The position numbers and the translations under genes were made by a program. A stretch of 64,000 nucleotides of DNA. Origin: Spiribacter sp. 2438 (lineage in GTDB: Bacteria > Pseudomonadota > Gammaproteobacteria > Nitrococcales > Nitrococcaceae). The number at the start of each line of letters is the position of its first letter. The stretch's first letter is position 1. Where the stretch lies: NCBI RefSeq assembly GCF_009676705.1, contig NZ_CP046046.1, forward strand, positions 310,001 to 374,000, read 5' to 3'. The notes under the pieces are model-generated. The model was not told the origin of the DNA. It was given only the letters and a program-made list of their open reading frames with translations, and searched no databases. Below are positions 1-64,000 of this stretch, piece by piece.

Positions 1-792
1 AAGGGCTGGCGGGAGATGATCCATCGCTACGCGGCGGGCATCGTCGGGCTGCTGATCGCCGGCATGGGGTATTACGCCTGGCGTCGGCGCCACATCCCCG
101 GCCAGTCCTGGAAGGTGCCGCTGTTTCTGATCGCCCTGGTGACGGTACAGGCCACTCTGGGGGCCTGGACGGTGACCTGGCAGCTCAAGCCGGCGGTGGT
201 CACTGCTCATTTGCTGGGCGGCCTGGCGACGTTGTCGCTGCTCTGGTGGGTAACCCTACGGACCAATCGGCTCGGCGGTGCTGGCCGGCTGGCCGGCCGC
301 CGAGGGCTGAATGCGCTCCTTGCCGCCGGCCTGGTGGTGGCCATCGGCCAGATCACCCTCGGGGGTTGGGTCAGCACCAACTATGCGGCCCTGGCCTGTA
401 ATGAATTTCCTGCCTGTAGCCTCGGTGAATACTGGCCCGAACGCGCCGATTTCTCCGAGGGCTTCGTGCTCTGGCGCGGGCTTGGCGTGAACTATGAGTT
501 CGGGGTCCTGGATCACCCGGCACGCATGGCGGTGCATCTGGTTCACCGGGCCGGGGCCATTGTCGCCGCCCTGGTGCTGGGTGCCCTGGCCTGGTGGCTG
601 TGGCGGGCCGGGGGCATTGGGCGCGGCATCGGCGTCGCGCTAGGCGTGGTGCTGGTGGCGCAGATCGGCATCGGCATTGGCAACGTGGTCTACAGCTTGC
701 CTCTGTCACTGGCGGTCGCGCACAATGCAGGCGCTGCGTTGCTCATGATGGTGCTTGTCACCGCCATTCATTTGATTCGACCGCTGAGATGA
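1..792 (+). CDS. ctaA: Heme A synthase CtaA (COX15 family), 5' end outside the window
   Basis: Converts heme O to heme A for aa3-type cytochrome oxidase; integral membrane protein. The reading frame is open from base 1 and the family needs about 80 more N-terminal residues, so the ATG at 16 is internal and the gene is cut by the window edge. The visible 263 residues hold about six hydrophobic segments and the family's conserved histidines, seen in [24 protein letters not shown] and AVAHNAGAA, plus a periplasmic loop with two cysteines ([11 protein letters not shown]) near residue 130. Its stop overlaps the start of ctaB, the next step in the same cofactor pathway. Family assignment is secure; only the N-terminus is missing. 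Confidence 0.93.
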
Positions 793-1748
793 CCATGAGC
801 CGGACCCTGGAAGCCACCACCAACTCCGCCGCGGAGGATGCCTCGGGGCTGAGGCACCTGGCCCGGCATTGGCGGGACTACTACGAACTGACCAAGCCGG
901 GCGTGGTGGCGCTGATGGTGTTCACCGCGGTGGTGGGCAACCTGTTGGCCAGTCCTGGAACCATTCCCTGGAACGCTTTGCTGGTGGGTAACCTCGGTAT
1001 CGCGCTGGCGGCCGGTTCCGCCGCCGCCATTAACCATCTGGTGGATCGAGGGGTTGACGGGCGCATGAAGCGCACCGAAGGCCGTCCACTACCCACCGGC
1101 CATCTGCGCACCAGTCATGCGGTGACCTTTGCCGGGGCGCTTGCCGCGGCCGGGCTCGGACTGCTGTATTTCGCGGTCAACCCCCTGACCGCCTGGCTTA
1201 CCTTCGGTTCACTGATCGGTTATGCATTCATTTACACGCTGTTCCTGAAGCGGGCGACGCCCCAGAACATCGTGATTGGCGGTGCTGCCGGTGCCGCACC
1301 ACCGGTGCTTGGCTGGGTGGCGGTCACCGGCAGCATCGACCCCCATGCGCTGCTGCTTTTCCTGATTATTTTCACCTGGACGCCGCCGCATTTCTGGGCA
1401 CTGGCGATCCACCGCCGCGAAGAGTACGCCAAGGTAGAAATTCCGATGCTGCCGGTTACCCACGGCGACCGGCATACGCGTTGGCAGATTCTTTTTTATA
1501 CCGCGTTACTGGTGGGGGTGACGTTGTTGCCGTTTGCCACGGGCATGAGCGGGCTGATCTACCTGGCGGCGGCCCTGGCGCTGGGCGCCCGGTATCTCTG
1601 GTTCGGGATTGCCATGCTGCAGAAGCCCGAAGAGCGTTCACTGCCCATGCGCTCCTTCGGCTTTAGCATTGTGTACCTGATGGCGCTTTTCGCGGCGCTG
1701 TTAACGGACGCCTATCTGCCAATTTTTGCCGGTTTGCTGGTGGGGTAG
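789..1748 (+). CDS. ctaB: Heme O synthase (protoheme IX farnesyltransferase)
   Basis: UbiA-superfamily membrane prenyltransferase that adds the farnesyl group to heme B, giving heme O for CtaA or for an o-type oxidase. I choose the ATG at 789, which overlaps the ctaA stop as ATGA; the frame is open further upstream but only inside ctaA. That gives 319 residues, normal for CyoE/CtaB. The first Asp-rich motif lies near residues 82-103 ([15 protein letters not shown], then RPLP) and the second conserved segment near 195-215 ([19 protein letters not shown]). About nine hydrophobic helices. Translational coupling to ctaA fits a heme A pathway serving a cytochrome c oxidase encoded upstream of the window. 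Confidence 0.96.
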
Positions 1749-1778
1749 CCCCCACCAGCCGGCATCGCCGGTTCGGGT

Positions 1779-2786
1779 TCAGCTGCCGCCGGCGACCTTG
1801 TCCAGCCCCACGTTGTTTTTCTCCAGCACCCGGTCAGCGCGATAGCTGGAGCGGACCAGCGGCCCGGACACCACTTCCAGAAATCCCTTGCCCAAACCGA
1901 TCTCGCGGAAGCGGTTGAACTGCTCGGGGGTGACGTAGCGGTCCACGGGCAGGTGGTTCACCGTCGGGCGCAGGTACTGACCGAACGTGACGATATCCAC
2001 GCCGATGGCGCGCAGGTCGTCCATGGTCTCGATGATTTCATCATCGGTTTCGCCCAGCCCGAGCATCAGACTGGTTTTGGTCAGCACGCCCGGGCGCCGG
2101 GCCTTGGCGTGGGCCAACACGTCCAGGGTCTGCTGATAGCCGGCCCGGGCATCCCGCACCGGGTGAGTCAGTCGCTTGACCGTCTCGACGTTTTGGGCGA
2201 ACACCTCCAGGCCGGTGTCCACCACCGTGTTGATGGCGTCGTGGCTGCCATTGAAGTCCGGCGTCAACGCCTCGACAGCGGTGTTCGGGTTCCGCTGCTG
2301 AATCGCCCGAATGCAGGCGGCGTAGTGACCAGCGCCGCCATCCGGCAGGTCATCCCGGTCCACCGAGGTCAGCACCACGTACTTCAGCCCCATCAGCTCC
2401 ACGGTCTCGGCGGCCCCGGCGGGCTCGTTCTCATCCAGCCAGCCTTTGGGGTTGCCGGTGTCCACCGCGCAGAAGCGGCAGGCCCGGGTGCAGACATCGC
2501 CCATGAGCATGATGGTGGCGGTGCCGGCACTCCAGCACTCGCCCATGTTGGGGCACATGGACTCTTCGCACACCGTCGCCAGCTTGTGGTCGCGGACGGT
2601 CTTGCGGACTTTCTGATAGGTCTCGCCGGTGGGCACCTTGACCCGCAGCCAGTCGGGCTTGTCGCCGCGGCTGAGCGGCGCGGCATCCTTGCGGGTCTTG
2701 ACGCCATTCTTGATGGCCCGGACACCGTTGGACTTGCTGACTTTCTGGCCGCTGAGGACCACGGGAATTCCCTTCAGTTCGCTCAT
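1779..2786 (-). CDS. lipA: Lipoyl synthase LipA (radical SAM)
   Basis: Inserts two sulfurs into protein-bound octanoate to make lipoyl groups on 2-oxoacid dehydrogenases and GcvH. 335 residues. The auxiliary cluster cysteines are C73, C78 and C84 ([12 protein letters not shown]), the radical-SAM cysteines C99, C103 and C106 (CTRACRFC), and the RSSYRAD motif near 312-318 supplies the auxiliary-cluster serine. The start is supported by AGGAG seven bases before the ATG. The first ~40 residues are a basic extension before the catalytic part. The usual partner lipB is not beside it; instead a small unknown gene lies 22 bases upstream on the same strand. It converges on ctaB. Confidence 0.97.
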
Positions 2787-51463: not shown

Positions 51464-52138
51464 ATGGCCGATATCGTTTTTGACGCCCTGACCCGCTGGT
51501 ACGGCGACACACCCCAGCGCCGGGTGCTCGACGATGTCTCCGGGCAGATCCGCGGCGGCGAGTTCGTGGTGGTGGTGGGCCGCAGCGGCTCCGGCAAATC
51601 CACCCTGCTCAACCTGCTGGGGGGGCTGGACCTGCCCAGCCGCGGCACCGTGCGCATCGGCGACGTGGACATGGCCACCCTCAATGACCGGCGGATCACC
51701 GAACTACGCCGGGCGCGCATGGGGTTCATTTTTCAGTCGTATAACTTGATCCCGACCCTGAGTGTGGCCGACAACCTGCGGCTGCCCCTGAGCCTGAACG
51801 GCCTGCCCGAGGACAACCGGGTGGCGGAGTGGCTGGATCGGGTGGGTCTCGACGGCCGGCAGGAAGCCTGGCCGGATCAGCTCTCCGGTGGTGAGCAGCA
51901 GCGGGTGGCCATTGCCCGGGCACTGATCCATGGCCCGGAATTCATTTTTGCCGACGAGCCCACCGGCAACCTGGATCTGGACAACGCCGAGCGGGTCATT
52001 GCCCTATTGGACGGGCTCTGTCGCGAGTCTGGTCGCACCCTGATCATGGCCACCCATGCCCGGGAGGTGGTGGGCCTGGCGGATCAGCTGCTGACCATTC
52101 GCGACGGCCGTCTGGTGGACGCCGGAGCCGCGGCGTGA
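51464..52138 (+). CDS. ABC transporter ATP-binding protein (LolD/MacB/AttE type)
   Basis: 224 residues from the ATG at 51464. Walker [19 protein letters not shown] near 38-55, Q-loop [12 protein letters not shown], signature [15 protein letters not shown] near 140-154, Walker [13 protein letters not shown] near 161-172 and the H-loop MATHAREV. This is the type that drives FtsX-fold permeases moving lipoproteins or peptides out of the inner membrane. Overlaps its permease as GTGA. Matches the first gene of AttEFGH-like operons. Confidence 0.93.
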
Positions 52139-54630
52139 GCCCATTGCTGGGTCGCATCGGGCGCAGCGATCTGCGCCGCCACCCCCTGCAAACCGGTCTG
52201 GCGGTGCTGGGGGTGGCCATCGCCGTGGCGGTGGTGGTGGCCGTGGACATGGCCAACCACTCCGCCCGCGAGGCGCTGCGGGTGTCCTTCGAGTCCGTCA
52301 CCGGCGTCGCCACCCACCAGGTGGTGGGTGGCCCCGACGGGCTCGATGAATCGGTCTACACCCGCATTCGTACCGAGATCGGGTTTGAGCGGGCTGCACC
52401 GGTGGTGCAGGGCGGCGTCACCGTGGCGGACGGCCCCACCCGGTCGCTGACCCTGCTGGGCCTGGACGCCTTCGCCGAGGGCCCGTTCCAGCGGCCGCTG
52501 GGCGGTGAGGGCGGACTGGGGGATGCCTTTAACGACCTCCTGCTTGGCGAGCGCAGCGTGGCGCTGGGGTCGGCGGAGGCCGAGCGGCTCGGGGTGAGCG
52601 CTGGCGATGAGCTGGCGCTGCGGATCGACGGCACCGAGGTTCGGGTGGACGTGATCACGGTGCTCGAGACCGAGGGCGAGGCCGCCCGGGGGCTGTTGCT
52701 GGCGGACATCTCCACGGCCCAGTCGCTGCTGGGCCGGGGCGGCGAGCTGGACCGCATCGATCTGATTGCCGATGAGCGCCAAGCGGATGCCATTGCCCGG
52801 GCCATCGGTGACGGCGGTCGGGTGGTGCCCGCCGCAGCCAGCGCCAATGCCGTTTTCCAGATCACCCGCGCCTTTCAGATCAATCTCACGGCACTCTCAC
52901 TGCTGGCCGTGGTGGTGGGGGCCTTTCTGGTGTTCAACACCCTGTCGTTTCTGGCGGTGCGGCGGCGCTCCACCATCGGGGTGCTGCGGTCCATGGGGGT
53001 GCAGCGTCACGAAATCATCCGGCTGATGCTCATGGATGCGGTGCTGATCGGCGCGCTCGGCACGGCCATCGGCCTGGCGCTGGGGTTCGCGCTGGCCCAT
53101 GGTCTGGTGGGGCTGGTGCTGCAGACCATTACCGACGTTTATTTTGCGCAGGCCGCCGGCACCCTGAACCCGTCGCCACTGTCCCTGCTCGCCGGGGTGC
53201 TGGTGGGGTTGGGCGGGGCCCTGGTCGCGGCGGCGGCGCCGGCCCGCGAGGCCGCCGCCATTCCGCCCCGGGCAGCCCTGTCCCGGGCCGACCTGGAGCA
53301 GCGGGCCCGCCGGCTGTCCGGATTCACGGCGCTGGCAGGGGGCGGTGCCCTGCTACTGGGCGCCGCCCTGATCGGGTTCACCCAGGGGCTGGTTCCCGGT
53401 TTTGCCGGCCTGTTCGCCATCATCCTCGGCGCCGCCTTTCTGGCGCCGCTGTTCACCACCCTGGCCGGCACGGCGCTCCGGCCGCTGGTGCGCGGTCGTC
53501 CCATCGGCGGACTGGTGGTGGAGGGCGCGGTCACCTCGCTGAGCCGCACCGGCGTGGCGGTGGCCGCCCTGAGTGTGGCCGTGGCCGCGGTGATTGGTGT
53601 CTCGGTGATGATCGAGAGCTTCCGCGAAAGCGTCATTGACTGGCTGGAGGGGTCGCTGGACGCCGATTATTACGTCACCGCCCAGGCGGCGCTGGATGAT
53701 GCGGTGGCGGACCGGCTGGCGGCACCGGCCGACGTGGCCTGGGTGTCGCGCTCCCGGTTCCAGGAGCTGCTCACCGCCGAGGGCCCACTGGATGTCTGGG
53801 CGCTGGAATTGCCGGCGGACCAGCAGCCGGCCATTGACGTGCGCCAGGGCGACCCCGCCGACGCCCTGCAGGCCCTGGCCGAGGAGCGGGCCGTGCTGCT
53901 CAGCGAACCCCTGGCGGCGCGGCTGGCCCTGGGACCGGGAGATCGGGTCGAACTGCCGCTCCCGGACGGGACCGCCGACCTGGAGGTGGCCGGTGTGTAT
54001 CGCGACTATGGATCACCCATGGGCACGCTGCTGATGCGCCGCAGCCTTTATCAGGCCCTCTACGATGACGATCGTCTCTCCGGGATCGGCGTCCACGTGG
54101 ACCCGGCGGCCAGCCCCTCGGCGAGCCTGCAACGGGATCTGGAGGCCGCCGTGGCCGATGTGCCGGGGGCCCAGGTGATCGACAACGCGGCCATTTTCGA
54201 TGAGTCCCTGCGGATTTTCGATCGCACCTTCGCCATTACCGAAGTGCTCCGCTGGCTGGCCGCTCTGGTGGCCTTCGTCGGCGTGGTCAGTGCGCTCATG
54301 GCGCTGCACCTTGACCGGCGGCGGGAGTTCGCCGTGCTGCGGGCCATGGGCCTGGGGCGGGGCGGCATGGGCGCCGTGGTCGGCGGGCAGAGCGGTCTGC
54401 TCGGACTGGCCGCCGGGCTCTGGGCGATCCCGCTGGGCCTGACCCTGGCGGGTCTGTTGGTGTTCGTGATCAACCGTCGGGCGTTCGGCTGGACCATGGG
54501 CTTCGAGCTGCAGGGAATGCCCCTGCTGGAAGGAGTGGCCCTGGCGGTGCTGGCGGCGCTGCTGGCGGCGGTGTATCCGGCCTGGCGGGCGGGCCGGGAG
54601 CCCATCGCCCGTGGCCTGAAGGGGGAATGA
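52135..54630 (+). CDS. FtsX-domain ABC permease (AttF/G type, fused)
   Basis: 831 residues from GTG 52135. N-terminal membrane helix (~residues 18-36), a large extracytoplasmic domain, a first FtsX domain with helices near 260-390 (ALSLLAVVVGAFLVFNTLSFLAV and MGVQRHEIIRLMLMDAVLIG), a second membrane pair near 410-500, another extracytoplasmic domain, and a C-terminal FtsX domain near 700-825 (RWLAALVAFVGVVSALMALHLDRRREFAVLRAMG). Thus ten helices, two half-permeases in one chain. Works with the ATPase and the lipocalin-like protein that overlap it. Cargo unknown, probably a lipid or lipoprotein. Confidence 0.9.
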   Translation: MSPLLGRIGRSDLRRHPLQTGLAVLGVAIAVAVVVAVDMANHSAREALRVSFESVTGVATHQVVGGPDGLDESVYTRIRTEIGFERAAPVVQGGVTVADGPTRSLTLLGLDAFAEGPFQRPLGGEGGLGDAFNDLLLGERSVALGSAEAERLGVSAGDELALRIDGTEVRVDVITVLETEGEAARGLLLADISTAQSLLGRGGELDRIDLIADERQADAIARAIGDGGRVVPAAASANAVFQITRAFQINLTALSLLAVVVGAFLVFNTLSFLAVRRRSTIGVLRSMGVQRHEIIRLMLMDAVLIGALGTAIGLALGFALAHGLVGLVLQTITDVYFAQAAGTLNPSPLSLLAGVLVGLGGALVAAAAPAREAAAIPPRAALSRADLEQRARRLSGFTALAGGGALLLGAALIGFTQGLVPGFAGLFAIILGAAFLAPLFTTLAGTALRPLVRGRPIGGLVVEGAVTSLSRTGVAVAALSVAVAAVIGVSVMIESFRESVIDWLEGSLDADYYVTAQAALDDAVADRLAAPADVAWVSRSRFQELLTAEGPLDVWALELPADQQPAIDVRQGDPADALQALAEERAVLLSEPLAARLALGPGDRVELPLPDGTADLEVAGVYRDYGSPMGTLLMRRSLYQALYDDDRLSGIGVHVDPAASPSASLQRDLEAAVADVPGAQVIDNAAIFDESLRIFDRTFAITEVLRWLAALVAFVGVVSALMALHLDRRREFAVLRAMGLGRGGMGAVVGGQSGLLGLAAGLWAIPLGLTLAGLLVFVINRRAFGWTMGFELQGMPLLEGVALAVLAALLAAVYPAWRAGREPIARGLKGE

Positions 54631-55778
54631 TGCGACGTTTCGAACCCACGTTAATGGCCCTGGGCGGACTGCTGCTGGCGGCGGTGGTGATCGGCTGGCT
54701 GCGCTTTGGCGGCCTGGGTGACCCGCCGGTGGCCAGCCCCGAGAACCTGGCCGAGTCCATGGGCCCCAGCGCCGATGACGATGAGTACGCCCGGGTCACC
54801 GGCCCGGTGCCCCTGGTCTTCCCCGAGGACCACGGCGCCCATCCGGACTATCGCACCGAGTGGTGGTACTTCGTGGGCAATGTCACCGCCGAGGATGGCC
54901 GGGATTACGGGTTTCAGCTCACCCTGTTCCGCTCGGCCCTGGCCCCGGAGGATCCGGACAAGGCCTCCGACTGGACCACGCGCCAGGCCTGGATGGGCCA
55001 TTTCGCCGTCACCGACATCGAGGCCGGTGAGCACCGCGCCCGGGAGCGCTATCAGCGCGGGGCCCTGGGGCTTGCCGGCGCTACCGTCCGCCCGGTGCGC
55101 ATCTGGCTGGATGACTGGGAGGCCCTCAGCGAAGACCCGGAGCACCTGTTCCCGCTGCGGCTGCGGGCCAGTGAGCCGGACCAGGGCATCGCCATCGACC
55201 TGCGCCTGGACGATCTCAAGGGGCATGTGCTGCATGGCGATCAGGGCTACAGCCGCAAGGGCGCCGAGCCGGGCAACGCCTCACGCTATTACGCGTTCAC
55301 CCGCCTCACCGCCGACGGTGAGCTCCGCTTTGATGACCGCAACGCCGAGGTGAGTGGTTCTGCCTGGCTGGACCGGGAATGGAGCACCAGCGCACTGGAC
55401 GCCGGCCAGCAGGGCTGGGACTGGTTTGCCCTGCAGCTCGACGATGGCCGCGACCTGGTGGTCTATCGCATCCGTCGCGACGACGGCAGCGTCGACCCCC
55501 ACTCCAAGGGCCTGCTGGTGGATCCGGACGGCAACAGCGAGGTGCTGGGCGTGGATGATTTCAACCTGACGCCCCAGCGGCACTGGCAAAGCCCACAGAC
55601 CGGTTCCCGCTACCCGGTGGAATGGTCGGTGCAGGTGCCAGACGCCGATCTGGATCTCACCGTCACCGCCCGGGTGGACGCCCAGGAAATGCCCACCACG
55701 GTGCGCTACTGGGAAGGATCCGTCAGTGTGCGTGGCAGCGACACCGGGGTGGGCTATCTGGAGATGACCGGCTACTGA
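54627..55778 (+). CDS. AttH-like (CrtC-related) lipocalin-fold protein
   Basis: 383 residues. One N-terminal membrane helix (~9-26) and an extracytoplasmic part with the two lipocalin-like beta-barrels of the AttH/carotenoid-hydratase-like family: YRTEWWYFVGNVTAEDGRDYGFQ, split near 78-100, and SGSAWLDREWSTSALDAGQQGWDWFALQL near 245-273. The name carotenoid 1,2-hydratase is often given but no carotenoid genes are present, and the family pairs with FtsX-type ABC genes, so a lipophilic-ligand carrier is more likely. Overlaps the permease stop (ATGA). Confidence 0.9.
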   Translation: MMRRFEPTLMALGGLLLAAVVIGWLRFGGLGDPPVASPENLAESMGPSADDDEYARVTGPVPLVFPEDHGAHPDYRTEWWYFVGNVTAEDGRDYGFQLTLFRSALAPEDPDKASDWTTRQAWMGHFAVTDIEAGEHRARERYQRGALGLAGATVRPVRIWLDDWEALSEDPEHLFPLRLRASEPDQGIAIDLRLDDLKGHVLHGDQGYSRKGAEPGNASRYYAFTRLTADGELRFDDRNAEVSGSAWLDREWSTSALDAGQQGWDWFALQLDDGRDLVVYRIRRDDGSVDPHSKGLLVDPDGNSEVLGVDDFNLTPQRHWQSPQTGSRYPVEWSVQVPDADLDLTVTARVDAQEMPTTVRYWEGSVSVRGSDTGVGYLEMTGY

Positions 55779-57693: not shown

Positions 57694-57800
57694 GAGGGTC
57701 CCTTCCGGGCGGACTCGGCGCGCAGCGTTAAACAAAGTTTCTCCCAGCGGTGATGGCTGAATGCGGGGCACTGATAACCCGCCATGGTAACCCGGATTGG

Positions 57801-57829
57801 CCCGGGCAAATGGCTTGACCCGCTGCCCG
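57801..57829. repeat. Inverted repeat upstream of the sirtuin gene
   Basis: CCGGGCA (57801-57807) and TGCCCGG (57823-57829) are perfect inverted arms around a 15-base spacer, in the 231-base gap between the Bcr and sirtuin genes. Possible operator; chance in GC-rich DNA cannot be excluded. The rest of the gap shows nothing I can name. Confidence 0.3.
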
Positions 57830-57924
57830 GTTTGTGGGGGGATGAGGGGTTCCATCCATCATCTGGTCACGGGAGTCCAACTGCCTTGGCAACGCCCCGC
57901 CCTTTGCCCGAACCCGCACCGGCC

Positions 57925-58746
57925 ATGACCGCCAACGCCCTGGCAGCGGCGCTGCGCCCGCTGGCGCCGGTGGCGGTGATTACCGGCGCCGGCGTGTCCA
58001 CCCGCTCCGGGATTCCCGACTACCGGGATCACCAGGGGGCCTGGAAGCGCTCGCCGCCCATGCAGATCGCCGAGTTCACCGGCAGCCTGCGGGGCCGGCG
58101 GCGCTACTGGGCCCGCAGCCTGGTGGGCTGGCGTACCGTGGCGGAGGCCCGGCCCAATCGCGCCCACCGGGCGCTGGCGCAGCTGGAAGCCTCCGGTCTG
58201 GTGGGGCCGGTGATCACCCAGAATGTGGATGGTCTCCATCAGGCCGCCGGCAGTCGCCAGGTGCTGGATCTGCATGGCCGTCTGGATCGGGTGGAGTGCC
58301 TGGACTGCAGCCGCGTCATCCCGCGACAGGCCCATCAGGCCCAGCTGGAGGCCGCCAATCCCGGCTGGGCGGAGGCCGCCACCCGGGTGGCCACGGCCCC
58401 CGATGGTGACGCGGACCTCGCCGATGTGGACTACGGGGATTTCGTGGTGCCCACCTGCCAGGCCTGCGGCGGGCTGCTCAAGCCGGCGGTGGTGTTCTTC
58501 GGCGAGACCGTGCCCCGACCCCGGGTGGACGATGCCTTTGCGCGACTGGCCGGTGCCGGGGGCCTGCTGGTGGTGGGGTCGTCACTCATGGTGTGGTCGG
58601 GCTACCGATTCGTGCGGGCCGCCGCGGCGGCCGGTCAGCCGGTGTATGTGCTGGGCCTGGGGGTGACCCGTGGCGACGCAGAGGCCAGCGGCCGGCTCAG
58701 TGCGGACTGCAGCGAGGGGCTGGAGGCCCTGCTTGACGCCCTATGA
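57925..58746 (+). CDS. Sir2-family NAD-dependent protein deacylase (sirtuin)
   Basis: 273 residues from the ATG at 57925; a TTG further up would add a Pro-rich tail. NAD site [17 protein letters not shown] at ~19-35, [12 protein letters not shown] near 98-109, catalytic His117 in LDLHGRLD, and a zinc-binding CLDC (~125-128) and CQAC (~177-181). The insert between the two cysteine pairs is longer than in CobB. PPRP-type C-terminus with GSSLMVWSG. Ends overlapping the TTL-like gene by six bases tail to tail. Target proteins unknown. Confidence 0.92.
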
Positions 58747-60225
58747 GTCGGGCGGCGCCTGAATCAGCAGCCCGTCCCGTGCCCAGTCGGCCAGGGTCTC
58801 CCAAACCGCAGCGGTCACCGCCGCTGGGTCCTCGGCGCCGGGCAGGCGTGCCGCAATGGCCGCCGGCGGCCGTCCCTCCACCGCATGCAGCCAGATCAGC
58901 GCGGCGGTGGGGTTGGGGGCCAGCCAGCGCTCACGGGTTTCGTCATAAAGGTGCAGGCCCTGCTCGTCGATCTGCTCCCGCACCCGCCAGGGCCGCAGGG
59001 GCGGCGGTGGCGGCGCGCTGCCCTGCAGGGCCTCCACCACCCGGGCGTCCGAGGGCCGGGGATAGGGCAGAAACTGCCACTGATCCGCCGGATCCGGGCC
59101 CGGGTAGAGACGCTCGAACCCCCCGGCGTCAGCGGCTTCCCGTTGCAGCGTCGCCACTTCGTCCGCTTCGGGATCGGCGTTCAGGCCCACCAGATTGACC
59201 AGGTCTTCGACCATGGCGCGTTTAATAGCCGCCTCGCGACGGCCCCCGTCCGCCGGCGCGGCGAACACCCCCAGGGACGGGTTGAGGTTGCACTCCAGCA
59301 GCCAGGGTTGCAGCTCGGTGTCCACCAGACAGTCCAGCCCCAGCAACTCATAGCAGCCCCCGGGGTCGGCGCCCCGGGCCAGGGTATCCCGGCGCATGGT
59401 CTCGCGGCCGGCCAGCATCGTGATGGTGATCAACTCCCGCAAGCGGTGGAACAGCGCCTCCGGGTCATGGCCCTCCCGCCGCAGGCGTTGGCGATAGTCC
59501 GCCAGTTCGATGAACACCACCGGATCGTCCACCGCCCGGTTGCCGGCGTTAATGTCCGGGTTGGTCTGATGGACGAAGGGGTCGTGCAGTGACTCCAGGG
59601 TGTAGGGCCGCGACGCCAGCTTGGCGAACCCCTCGCCATAGAGATACACCCGCAGCGGCTCCACGGAGCGGATCAGCACATACAGGCGCAGCACGTACTT
59701 GCGGCCATCGATCAGATGGGGCCGGGCCTGATAGGACTGCACGATCCAGCCGGGCTCGGCCGGGGCGGCTGCCGGCGTGGAGAGCAGCGCAATTCCCCGT
59801 CCCCGGGAACTGTTTTCGGGTTTTTGCAGCCATAACTGACTCGGGTCACCGGCGGCGGCGAAGCGCAGGGCGTCCCGGTCCCGGGGTATCACAAAGGTGC
59901 GGGGGTGAAAGCGGGCCCGGCGGGCCGGGTCACTGTCGCTACCGTGGGCCGCGGCCAGTCGCTGCTCCAACCCGCCGAGGGTGTCGGCGAGGGCGGATTT
60001 GACGGTTACGCAGCCGTTGCCCGGGATATGATTGACCGTGCGCCCGTCCTGCACCCGCTGGAACGCCTCGGCCGTCGGCATACCGACCGTCCACAGGGCG
60101 TCCCAGCCTCCGGGGTCGTCGCCCTGGCTGAGGGGCCGCCACCGCGCCGGGTCCAGGGCGTCCACGAAAAAGTGGTCCTCCTCGCCGGGTTGCGAGCCCG
60201 TGAGGGCGTAGGTCAGTCTGATCAT
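58741..60225 (-). CDS. Tubulin-tyrosine-ligase-like ATP-grasp protein fused to a PqqD-like domain
   Basis: 494 residues from the ATG at 60225. Residues ~45-350 form a TTL-type ATP-grasp ligase: NHIPGNGCVTVKSAL near 65-79, LWLQKPENSSRGRGI at 131-145 with Lys135, IVQSYQARPHLIDGRKYVLR at 161-180 with Lys176, LGLDCLVD at 295-302 and LLECNLNPSL at 309-318 with Glu311 and Asn313. All nucleotide and metal residues appear present. A Pro-rich linker (PPPPPLRPW) leads to residues ~420-490, which read as PqqD: LHLYDETRERWLAPNPTAAL, then IWLHAVEG and a winged-helix end. PqqD-like domains bind leader peptides of RiPPs. Peptide ligase function is inference. TACAAT at 60237-60232 may give a nearly leaderless mRNA. 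Confidence 0.85.
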   Translation of the reverse strand: MIRLTYALTGSQPGEEDHFFVDALDPARWRPLSQGDDPGGWDALWTVGMPTAEAFQRVQDGRTVNHIPGNGCVTVKSALADTLGGLEQRLAAAHGSDSDPARRARFHPRTFVIPRDRDALRFAAAGDPSQLWLQKPENSSRGRGIALLSTPAAAPAEPGWIVQSYQARPHLIDGRKYVLRLYVLIRSVEPLRVYLYGEGFAKLASRPYTLESLHDPFVHQTNPDINAGNRAVDDPVVFIELADYRQRLRREGHDPEALFHRLRELITITMLAGRETMRRDTLARGADPGGCYELLGLDCLVDTELQPWLLECNLNPSLGVFAAPADGGRREAAIKRAMVEDLVNLVGLNADPEADEVATLQREAADAGGFERLYPGPDPADQWQFLPYPRPSDARVVEALQGSAPPPPPLRPWRVREQIDEQGLHLYDETRERWLAPNPTAALIWLHAVEGRPPAAIAARLPGAEDPAAVTAAVWETLADWARDGLLIQAPPDS

Positions 60226-60306
60226 TGCCCTATTGTAAGCCGCCACCGCCGAACTGGCGCCCCAGGCAGCCGCGGCGGATGAGCCTGAACCGGAGTCGAG
60301 GACTGA

Positions 60307-60447
60307 ATGCCGAAGCCGCTACCCAGCAAAATCTGCCCGGTCTGTGAGCGCCCCTTCAACTGGCGGCGCAAGTGGGCCCGGGACTGGGAGAATGTCCGTT
60401 ACTGTTCCGAGCGCTGCCGGCGCAATCGGCGTCAGGCGGAGTCGTGA
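60307..60447 (+). CDS. DUF2256 small zinc-finger-like protein
   Basis: A 46-residue gene. Its four cysteines are C10-x2-C13 and C33-x3-C37 ([13 protein letters not shown] ... YCSERCRRN), the DUF2256 pattern, with many Arg and Trp, so it likely binds zinc and perhaps nucleic acid. The stop overlaps the GTG start of the cryptochrome/photolyase gene (GTGA), and DUF2256 is frequently beside or fused to this photolyase class. Upstream, 81 bases separate it from the divergent TTL gene. Function unknown. Confidence 0.88.
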
Positions 60448-61994
60448 ACCCACAGCTGGTCTGGTTCAAGCGGGATCTGCGGGTGGCGGATCACGCGCCA
60501 CTGGCCCGGGCCGCGGCCGCCGGGCCGGTGTTGTGTGTGTATGTCATCGAGCCCGCCTACTGGCAGCTGCCGGACACCGCGGCCCGTCACTGGGGATTCA
60601 TTCGCGAGAGCCTGCAGAGCCTGGCGGTTGACCTGCAGGCGCTGGGGCTGCGCCTGCGGGTGGTGGAGGGCGAACTGCCGGCGGTGTTCCAGCACCTGCA
60701 TGCCTGGGCGGGCTTCGACACCATTCACGCCCACCAGGAAACCGGCAACCACTGGACCTACCAGCGGGACCGCCGGGTGGCCGCCTGGTGTCGTCAGGCC
60801 GGCGTGCGGTTCGAGGAAACCCCCGCCTTCGGGGTGGTGCGGCCCCTGGCCAATCGGGATCAGTGGGCCGGCCACTGGGAGCGCCGCATGAAAGCCGCGC
60901 CGGTGCCCCGGCCCACGGGGGCACGCGCCGCCGAGCCGGCGACCCCCTGCCCGCTGCCCCAGCGGGACCCGGATCAGCTGCCCGAGCACCTGGGGCATGA
61001 CCGGCGCCCCTGCCCCGGGCGCCAGCCCGGCGGCCGGCCCGAGGGGGAGGCCCTGCTGGCGAGTTTTCTGGCCGAGCGGGGCGAGACCTATCGCCAAGGC
61101 ATGTCGAGCCCCGCCTCCGCCCGCCGGGTGTGCTCACGGCTGTCCGCCCACATTGCCTACGGCACCCTGTCGCTGCGGGAAATCGTTCAGACCCACCGGC
61201 GGCGCTGGGCGGCGGTGCGGGCCGAGGCCCCCCGGTCGCGCTGGGCCCGTTCCCTGAAATCCTTCGAGTCGCGGCTCCACTGGCATTGTCATTTCATGCA
61301 GAAACTCGAGGACGAGCAGGCGCTGGAGTGGCGCAACATGCACCGCGGCTATGACGGCCTGCGGGATGAGGATCAGGTGGACCCGGAGCGACTGGCGGCC
61401 TGGGTGGAGGGTCGCACCGGCATTCCCTTTGTGGACGCCTGCATGCGCCAGCTCCACCACGAGGGCTGGATCAACTTTCGGATGCGCGCCATGCTGGTGG
61501 CGGTGTCCAGCTATCACCTGTGGATGCACTGGCGGGAGCCCGCCCAGCAGCTGGCGCGGCTGTTCACCGACTACGAGCCGGGCATTCATTACTGTCAGTT
61601 CCAGATGCAGTCCGGCACCACCGGCATCAACACCCTGCGCATCTACAACCCGGTGAAGCAGTCCCGGGATCAGGATCCCCGGGGGGACTACATCCGTCGC
61701 TGGGTCCCGGAGCTGGCGGCGCTGCCCGCCGACTGGATCCATGAGCCCTGGCGTCTGACCGGGTCGCTGCAGCGGCGCTACGGGGTCCGGCTGGAGCGGG
61801 ATTATCCGGCGCCGGTGGTGGATCACGAACAGGCCGCCCGGGCTGCCCGGGCCCGGATCAAGGCCCATCGGGCCAGTCGGGATCTGAGTGGGGAGTCGGC
61901 GCGGGTGCGCCAGCGCCACGCCAGTCGCTCACCCAGCCCGACGCGGCCGCGTCGGCGTCGCACCGATCCGCGCCAGGGCAGTCTCGATCTCTAG
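60444..61994 (+). CDS. Cryptochrome/photolyase-family flavoprotein
   Basis: 516 residues from the GTG at 60444 ([17 protein letters not shown]). Antenna domain [21 protein letters not shown] domain with [54 protein letters not shown] and the [20 protein letters not shown] block. It differs from the CPD photolyase at 29697 in the FAD pocket, so it may be a (6-4), single-strand or signalling type; I cannot decide. The C-terminal ~50 residues are Arg/Ser-rich and disordered. Co-translated with DUF2256. Confidence 0.9.
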
Positions 61995-64000
61995 TCGCTG
62001 AGCCGGTCGGTGAGCTCCGCCGGTGTGCGGGCCACCGGACGGCAGGTGTGCCCCTGGCAGACCCAGGCGCCGGTTTCGCCCTCGGGGGCGGCGGCCACCG
62101 CGGTGCCCGCCGACGGCGTGAACACCAGCCGGCCCGGGTGATAGCCCGCTTCGGCCACTTCCCGCCAGGGCCGGTCACCGGCCTCATCGGCGGGGTCCGG
62201 CCGCAACACCACCAGCGCCGGCGGCTCGAGGATCTCCTCCAGGGCATTGAGCAGGGCGCAGTGAGCGCCGGGGGCCTCCTGAATGCTGTTGGCGCCGGCC
62301 ACCACCGCCCGCTCGGCGGCCTGCCGATAACGCGCGTCGCCCAGCCAGTGGCCCAGGCGGTTGAGCGCTAGCGCCGCCACGCCGTTGCCGGCGGGCAGGG
62401 CATCATCGGTAAAACTGCGCGGCCGCTGAATCAGGGCCTCATGATCGGCCGCGGTGAAGAAAAAGCCGCCGTCCTCCGGGTCCTCGAACTGCTCCAGCAG
62501 GACGTCCCCCAGGGCCAGGGCCCACTCCTCGCGACCGTCGGACCAGCGGGCCTGCTGCAACTCGATAAGCGCGGAGAGCATGAAGGCGTGGTCATCCAGA
62601 TAGCCCGACAGGTTCGCCCGCCCGGCACGCCAGCTGGCCAGCAGTCGCCCGTCCCGCCAGCAGTGATCCCGCACAAAGCGCTCGGCGGTCTCGGCGGCAT
62701 CAATAAATTCAGGGATCCCCAGGAAACGCCCCGCCCGGGCCAGCCCGCCGATCATCAGGGCGTTCCAGGCGGTCAGCGCCTTGTCGTCGAGGGCCGGGCG
62801 CTCACGCTGGCTGCGGGCTTCACGCAACTTGGCCTGGGCGCTTTTCCATCGCTCCACCAGGGTGTCACGGGGGGTCTGCAGGCGCTTGGCCAGTTCCGAG
62901 AACGCCATGTGGACCTGGGGCAGCCAGCGGCCCTCGAAGTTGGGCGCCTCATCCAGCCCCAGCCGGTAGATGGCGAGTTCCGCTTCCTCGGGCTCCAGCA
63001 CCTCGCGCATGGCGTCCGGCGTCCACAGATAGAACGCCCCCTCGCCCTCGCTGGTGTCGGCGTCCAGTGAGGTGGCAAAGCCGCCTTCCGGCAGGGTCAT
63101 TTCCCGCAGCACCCATTCACCGGTTTCCCGGGCGATACGCCGGAAGAACCGGTCGCCGGTGGCCCGGTAAGCGTCCGTGGCCACGCCGATCAGCAGGGCA
63201 TTGTCGCTGAGCATTTTCTCAAAGTGAGGGATGCCCCACTCGGCATCCACTGAGTAACGGGCAAAGCCGCCACCAATCTGGTCGTAAATGCCACCCAGGG
63301 CCATGCGCCGCAGGCTGTGGCAGGCCATGTGCAGCGCGCCCCGGTCCACCTCGCCGGCCTGCTGGCCGCGGGCGTAGTGACGCAGCAGCCGCTCGAGACT
63401 GGTGGCCTGGGGGAATTTGGGCGCGCTGCCAAAGCCCCCGTAGGCGGCGTCAAAGCGGCTGGCCAGCTGCAGCCGGGCCGACTCCAGCGCGTCGGCGGTG
63501 GGCAGCGCCGAGCCACCGGCACCGGCCGCCCGGTTGAGCACCCGCTGGAGGCGCTGGTTCTGCTCATCCACTTCGTCCCGCCGCTCCTGCCAGACCTGGA
63601 TGATCTGCTGCATCACCTCATCAAAGCCGGGCATGTCGGCGCGGCTCTGGCGGGGGAAATAGGTGCCGGTGAAAAACGGCAACTGCTCCGGCGTCAGGAA
63701 CACCGTCAGCGGCCAGCCACCGCCGCGGCCCGCCAGCAGCTGATGAGCCATTTGATAAATCCGATCCAGGTCCGGGCGCTCCTCGCGGTCCACCTTGATG
63801 TTGATGAAGTCGCGGTTCATCTGCGCCGCGATGTCGGGATCATCGAAGGATTCATGGGCCATGACGTGACACCAGTGGCAGGCGGAATAGCCCACCGAGA
63901 GCAGGATCGGCCGGTCCAGATCCCGCGCCGCCTGCAGGGCCGTCTCGTCCCAGGGCTGCCAGTGCACCGGGTTGTCCGCGTGCTGGCGCAGATAGGGGCT
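61991..64000 (-). CDS. YyaL/SPATA20-type thioredoxin-domain protein, 5' end outside the window
   Basis: The frame is open from the right edge: the minus strand beyond 63967 reads [17 protein letters not shown], the usual beginning of this family, so the GTG at 63967 is internal and 15-20 residues are missing. The thioredoxin-like domain has CHWC in [20 protein letters not shown], followed by [14 protein letters not shown] and [12 protein letters not shown]. The larger C-terminal part is an alpha/alpha-barrel (six-hairpin glycosidase-like: [26 protein letters not shown]). Biochemical function is not established; N-acylglucosamine-epimerase-like catalysis has been suggested for the fold. Overlaps the cryptochrome gene by four bases at the 3' ends. 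Confidence 0.93.

Follow-up and report, generated by a model that had tools for sequence, protein, structure and literature searches.

Gene organization

The window analysed here is a stretch of 64,000 nucleotides (G000:C1:310001-374000) of a 1.9 Mb genome. It carries a minus-strand gene for a protein in which a TTL-type ATP-grasp domain is fused to a PqqD-like (RRE) domain (Table 1). The reading frame runs from an ATG at 60225 to a stop codon at 58741, and an alternative GTG start at 60246 would give a product of 501 residues. The convergent neighbour of the enzyme gene is a Sir2-type gene (57784-58746) with a six-base overlap at its end, and the divergent neighbour is a photolyase gene (60372-61994). 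Elsewhere in the window, a MacB/FtsX-type permease gene is followed by a CrtC-like lipocalin gene (52135-55778; Pfam CrtC and Lipocalin_9), and a 658-residue DUF255/Thioredox_DsbH protein (Pfam) is encoded on the minus strand at 61991-63967.

Table 1. Features of the TTL-PqqD system; positions refer to the window unless a contig is given.
Feature	Position	Strand	Remarks
TTL-PqqD fusion gene	58741..60225	minus	494 aa from ATG; aligned with 13 homologues
TTL-type ATP-grasp catalytic domain (Pfam PF03133)	59266..60042	minus	E 5.6e-48; TTLL6 best PDB match
Codon of R141	59803..59805	minus	aligned with TTLL6 Gln taken as Q180
PqqD-like (RRE) winged-helix domain	58753..59004	minus	follows Pro-rich linker; fold from AlphaFold2 model
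Candidate precursor	G000:C1:227822-228151	minus	profile search; ~141 kb from enzyme gene, outside window

Catalytic domain

The first-pass annotation, made from the sequence alone, had described a complete TTL-type ATP-grasp domain in the 494-residue protein, and this description holds. Pfam TTL covers residues 69-327 of the 501-residue form (164.1 bits against a curated cut-off of 20.1). The closest solved relative by sequence is TTLL6 (E = 7.7e-35), followed by TTLL7 (5e-28) and TTLL11 (9.2e-19), with TTL itself at 8e-9 or weaker. An AlphaFold2 model based on a 46-row alignment, comprising the window protein and 45 rows chosen from the 80 fetched loci described below, has a mean pLDDT of 92.3 and a pTM of 0.92 for the window protein. 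A fold search of the PDB with this model also placed TTLL6 first (2.9e-30, TM 0.82 by target length), with TTLL11 and TTLL7 next and TTL behind them. The glutamylases TTLL6, TTLL7 and TTLL11 thus outrank TTL both by sequence and by fold. Degenerate ATP-grasp residues among homologues, which had been named beforehand as grounds for abandoning the ligase reading, were not seen: Lys135, Arg180, Asn222, Glu293, Asp298, Glu311 and Asn313, presumably the ATP- and metal-binding residues of the ATP-grasp fold, are invariant in all 46 rows. In TTLL glutamylases the catalytic core is followed by a microtubule-binding domain; the sequence match to TTLL6 ends near residue 345, and the PqqD-like domain comes after this point.

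Arg141 is aligned with a glutamine of TTLL6. The window motif NSSRGRG pairs with SGCQGRG of TTLL6 in 6vzt and with SGARGRG of engineered TTLL6 in 6vzq, 6vzr and 6vzs, the title of 6vzr describing engineered TTLL6 bound to an initiation analogue. Judged from the residue numbering, the aligned glutamine would be Q180, which the available text of PMC12366701 gives as the main determinant of the elongase selectivity of TTLL6. The position is occupied by Arg in 30 rows and Lys in the other 16, so the window enzyme may lean towards initiating or branching rather than elongating a chain.

PqqD-like domain

The absence of a PqqD fold after residue 420 had likewise been put forward as grounds for rejection, and the AlphaFold2 model predicts this fold with high pLDDT at residues 415-489. 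Three strands (415-420, 423-428 and 433-435), three helices (439-448, 454-460 and 467-483) and a last strand (487-489) follow one another in the RRE/PqqD order, and the residue blocks from 411 to 490 have pLDDT values of 94-96, save one at 85. The accessible part of PMC12710340 gives this order for RREs, and an RRE/PqqD domain has a winged-helix fold of three strands and then three helices. A profile search for Pfam TTL and PqqD had been proposed for the fusion protein; the TTL match was obtained, but the PqqD match of the window protein is sub-threshold (14.1 bits against a cut-off of 23.4, E = 0.059). In seven scanned homologues, Pfam PqqD lies above the cut-off in three (33.6, 27.1 and 26.4 bits) and below it in four. 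The sole NCBIfam match of the window protein is to a lasso-peptide PqqD chaperone (E = 0.11), far under the cut-off of that family.

Homologues and the C-terminal domain

A pattern-based scan over genomes with a 14-row alignment confirmed 115 places, of which the best 80 were used; counts for these loci do not constitute a census. The best 80 of 115 come from Halomonas and its relatives, Marinobacter, Ectothiorhodospiraceae, Robiginitomaculum, Parvularculaceae, Rhodobacteraceae and a few others. A plasmid search did not find the enzyme.

In 75 of these 80 homologues (best 80 of 115), an additional 246-330 residues follow the PqqD part. Two proteins (L019 and L095) end at the PqqD part, and three (L026, L088 and L093) have 50-110 residues more, one of them reaching the contig end. 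All six copies found in the window's genus are without the C-terminal domain. In a quick tree, two changes are needed between the short and long forms, with two of the short rows on long branches.

The model of the C-terminal domain has a pLDDT of 93.4 and a weak likeness to PEP carboxykinase (best E = 1.1e-3, none ≤0.001; TM by query about 0.3-0.55), and a Pfam scan of the domain gave no match in three of three copies. HPr kinase shares the PEP carboxykinase fold. In a profile comparison, the domain aligns with the P-loop part of a PqqD protein encoded by another gammaproteobacterium (G235; hhalign probability 96, E = 2.5e-9); this part appears HprK-like by eye, and Pfam names only the PqqD part of that protein. 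A first reading of the C-terminal domain as an HprK-like kinase was dropped. Since the GSGKST loop has no counterpart in the alignment with the G235 protein, the C-terminal domain of the long homologues is treated as a putative degenerate kinase-like domain.

Precursor family

Clustering of the genes neighbouring the enzyme gave one family present in 52 of the best 80 of 115 loci, with a basic and hydrophobic leader followed by a long Glu-rich tract (e.g. EAEGEGEAEG). In many members a c-type cytochrome domain with a CxxCH motif comes after the tract, of the SoxA/TsdA type in the three copies scanned. A motif search produced 60 precursors in 54 of these 80 loci, 42 of which have leader and tract but no CxxCH, an indication that the enzyme targets the tract. 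A profile of the leader only, applied to 21,227 open segments that were each 40 or more residues long, produced 106 matches in 75 of the 80 loci (best 80 of 115), the model having 21 rows of which 16 are from the same 80 loci and match by construction. A Glu tract follows the leader in all 106 matches, and reversed segments gave none. In 74 of the 75 loci a match lies within 1 kb of the enzyme gene. No other family accompanies the enzyme as consistently as the precursors do. The first-pass annotation had proposed testing whether small peptides or a shared target co-occur with homologues, and these candidate precursors do.

The five loci without a leader match are L019, L095, L025, L048 and L051. 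The genomes taken to correspond to the first three (G003, G010 and G053) have a precursor on another contig, and the two Pararhodobacter loci (L048 and L051) have none within the fetched flanks. At L048, a DoxX-like fragment and a sigma-factor-like ORF, both identified by eye, adjoin the enzyme gene.

Three residues before the leader proline, Tyr is present in 65 of 92 precursor ORFs and Val in 15. YxxP and LxxP are known RRE recognition motifs according to the available portions of PMC12710340 and PMC13381572. On reading the sequences, the YxxP-type leader looks as though it doubles as a Sec signal peptide. The arrangement found is that of a RiPP system, with a gene-encoded precursor that has a conserved leader and a variable core and is linked to the enzyme gene; in the window's genome the two genes are 141 kb apart.

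Two further observations concern genes that resemble parts of these precursors. In a Rhodobacteraceae locus (L058:13023-13697, minus strand), a Glu-Gly-Ala tract is joined to a domain with a weak, sub-threshold match to cytochrome P460, which would be a second type of domain attached to such a tract. The precursor family's cytochrome domain also occurs without leader or tract near contig ends at G043:C142:321-710 and G045:C178:30-404 (loci L125 and L124), and no enzyme was detected in these two genomes.

The Glu tract as probable acceptor

Closely spaced Glu residues are constant in the cores, with Ala, Gly, Lys, His, Pro or Thr as the variable residues next to them. Most species have (EAEG)n-like tracts, and the window's genus has (TPEA)n. 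Glu codons are mixed, with at least two each of GAA and GAG, in 85 of 92 tracts, which argues that the tract is maintained at the protein level. The precursor C-termini are not conserved, with many short precursors ending within the tract, and in cytochrome-fused precursors the tract is internal. Because the closely spaced Glu residues are constant, the C-termini vary and the tract is internal in the cytochrome fusions, the Glu side chains are the likely acceptors; glutamate is the likely donor because the closest relatives of the enzyme are glutamylases.

The same enzyme and substrate could instead be joined by a different chemistry, with another donor such as glycine or with glutamate added at the peptide C-terminus, as RimK does on S6. 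Donors in the TTL family are Tyr, Gly or Glu (TTL itself with Tyr, and TTLL10 as a polyglycylase) in the source text available, and the accessible part of PMC12366701 describes TTLL11 and TTLL6 as able to extend the main chain at the C-terminus; the many short precursors that end inside the tract would suit such a reaction. This possibility is judged unlikely given the glutamylase relatives, the internal tracts and the unconserved C-termini, and given that the Gln of the elongases TTLL6 and TTLL11 (PMC12366701, in the portion available) is replaced by Arg or Lys in every row of the alignment.

A graspetide-like reaction, in which the ligase would cross-link Glu side chains to Thr or Lys within the tract, would also pair an ATP-grasp enzyme with an acidic core. 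Thr and Glu stand in register in the (TPEA)n tracts of the window's genus, and Lys is present in some alphaproteobacterial tracts. Nevertheless, 35 of the 42 short precursors contain an unbroken stretch of at least 20 residues made up only of Glu, Ala and Gly, which offers no nucleophile, and both sequence and fold place the ATP-grasp domain with the TTLL enzymes, making this reaction highly improbable. Judged by these stretches, the short precursors do not show the paired acid and nucleophile residues of a graspetide core, although the (TPEA)n tracts do hold Thr, and membership in the lasso peptides or graspetides is not claimed. Glutamylation of Glu side chains in the tract is the chemistry preferred here.

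Candidate precursor in the window's genome

The first-pass annotation had seen no precursor gene beside the enzyme and had suggested that the substrate might be encoded elsewhere, a suggestion that agrees with the candidate precursor located in the same genome (Table 1). Its leader, RRQLIARLSRTVVYTTPLLIAVTGAAS, is followed by (TPEA)n with mixed synonymous codons. The start of this gene and the end of a DoxX gene share one base, and coaD and rsmD (by eye) come next. The enzyme gene directly adjoins the DoxX-precursor-coaD block in two congeners (G004 and G011), so the separation of enzyme and precursor in the window's genome looks secondary. A profile search of the whole genome identified this one precursor place only. 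A scan of the window for a Glu-rich or leader-bearing precursor found none, the Glu threshold being too strict for (TPEA)n, a case covered by the leader pattern together with the whole-genome profile search. A DNA pattern of strict E-[A/G] repeats found nothing in the same genome.

Co-occurrence of enzyme and precursor

The enzyme was found in 17 of 59 relatives. With matches to the low-complexity tail only left out (five genomes), a leader-bearing precursor is present in 17 of 17 enzyme-positive relatives and 2 of 42 negatives; for relatives with a completeness of 90% or more and a contamination of 5% or less, the counts are 12 of 12 and 0 of 30. Of 370 genomes sampled from the class, with a limited number of candidates per genome scored for both enzyme and precursor, four have the full-length enzyme (E < 1e-200), three of them belonging to one genus, and the leader-bearing precursor is present in 4 of 4 positives and 0 of 366 negatives (tail-only matches left out in fourteen genomes). 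Eleven more genomes of this sample have only partial TTL or PqqD matches. The Fisher values (6e-13, 9e-11 and 1e-9) overstate the evidence, as they ignore kinship and some of the positives supplied model rows. The precursor model was built from enzyme-adjacent genes, so co-occurrence is favoured; its rows come from nine of the 17 positive relatives (G000, G004, G011, G017, G023, G029, G031, G047 and G051) and from two of the four class positives (G000 and G288).

The two relatives with a precursor and no detected enzyme gene (G006 and G009) are 84 and 86% complete. Neither has a match to the Sir2 neighbour, which the five near-complete enzyme-negative congeners do have, so an assembly gap is possible.

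The Glu-rich proteins might be only partners or co-regulated neighbours of an enzyme that modifies some other protein. Catalysis on the precursor is a prediction, and other families are also common nearby: of the best 80 of 115 loci, 51 have a DinB-like family and 48 a family that was named sigma-factor-like by eye. Against this, the precursors are more consistent neighbours than either, their leader suits the fused PqqD domain, and enzyme and precursor are kept together even where their genes are not adjacent, as in the window's genome. A neighbour-only relationship is accordingly rated improbable, and the Glu-tract precursors are strongly suggested to be the substrates of the enzyme.

Two separate arrangements were also observed. 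A genome of the class sample (G227) encodes a stand-alone TTL protein of 367 residues (L153:1447-2550, plus strand) and has a PqqD-like match on contig C93, and the ligase and recognition domains may be split between genes there; the class-sample search gave no precursor match in this genome. At L160, the gene for a PqqD protein that ends in a GSGKST P-loop part, HprK-like by eye (571-1764, minus strand), lies near a small gene with the leader RRDFLKKAGKFAVYTPPAVMML (1948-2220, minus strand), and the pair is a possible related leader-guided system without a TTL domain.

Proposed function

The features computed here are the two domains, the closeness to TTLL6, the intact catalytic residues, the precursors near 75 of the best 80 of 115 homologues and the co-occurrence of enzyme and precursor. 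From these we infer leader binding, glutamate as donor, a side-chain linkage and export. The protein would be an RRE-guided TTLL-type ligase that glutamylates the Glu tract of leader-bearing precursors before export, a reading to which a probability of roughly 0.7 is assigned. The PqqD-like domain would bind the YxxP-type leader of a dedicated precursor, and the ATP-grasp domain would use ATP to activate a carboxylate and then join an amino acid to it. The amino acid added would be glutamate, most likely on the side-chain carboxylates of Glu residues in the repeat tract. With the leader also serving as the Sec signal, the modified product, a strongly acidic peptide or cytochrome tail, would then pass to the periplasm and form a polyanionic tail there, either free or attached to a cytochrome. 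That this tail binds metals or other cations is a guess, prompted by the bufferins, DoxX and the cytochrome link.

The first-pass annotation had proposed a ligase that would add an amino acid to a peptide selected through a PqqD-like domain of its own; this proposal agrees with the results obtained here and is supported by them, the reaction being a prediction. The precursor family, the TTLL6-type relationship and the C-terminal domain, present in most of the fetched relatives and absent from the window copy, go beyond it.

To our knowledge, TTLL glutamylation of Glu-rich tails has been studied almost wholly in eukaryotes, and a bacterial TTLL-type enzyme with a repeat substrate would be a small, tractable model of how such ligases choose and extend chains. 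The system would open a new group of modified peptides. The present reading predicts modified precursors in culturable Halomonas and Marinobacter strains, where they are open to mass spectrometry.

Comparison with known systems

RimK belongs to a different ATP-grasp family and has one housekeeping substrate, without an RRE or a leader. In common with the enzyme proposed here, it is bacterial and of the ATP-grasp type, and it attaches several glutamates to its target, ribosomal protein S6 (PMC4431377, as far as available).

The joining of an RRE to a modifying enzyme and the YxxP-type leader are shared with PqqD-type RRE systems for lasso peptides and other RiPPs (PMC12710340 and PMC13381572, available text), but the modifying enzyme is here a TTL-type ligase. 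Neither PF03133 nor the word tubulin appears in the main text, as available, of the large RRE survey PMC12710340. The bufferins, which are MNIO-modified RiPPs, have in common Sec signal peptides, DoxX genes in many clusters and some long precursors, whereas their enzyme is an MNIO and their cores mostly contain Cys; the accessible part of PMC12452194 does not mention Glu tracts.

In the literature covered, largely the main texts of open-access papers, neither TTL-type ligases carrying a PqqD domain nor these precursors were found described. TTLL glutamylation chemistry and RRE guidance are each already known, and their combination was not found described. RRE-guided polyglutamylation of Glu repeats resembling tubulin tails, carried out in the cytoplasm on precursors with Sec signals and displayed in the periplasm, including on c-type cytochromes, is on balance the more probable reading, and such a system, if borne out, would deserve to be named a new class of bacterial ribosomal peptide and protein modification.

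A close parallel is provided by the TTLL glutamylases acting on tubulin tails and, in the case of TTLL5, on RPGR-ORF15, which belong to the same ATP-grasp ligase family and have an acidic Glu-Gly repeat substrate. TTLL5 selects its substrate through a docking domain outside the catalytic core, its CID engaging the RPGR BD (PMC13052805, available text). The present system differs in being bacterial and without tubulin, in a docking step that would be performed by the PqqD-like domain, and in candidate substrates that are leader-bearing, apparently exported peptides and cytochromes. If the proposed reading is true, bacteria would have an equivalent of the glutamylation of tubulin and RPGR that relies on a docking system of its own.
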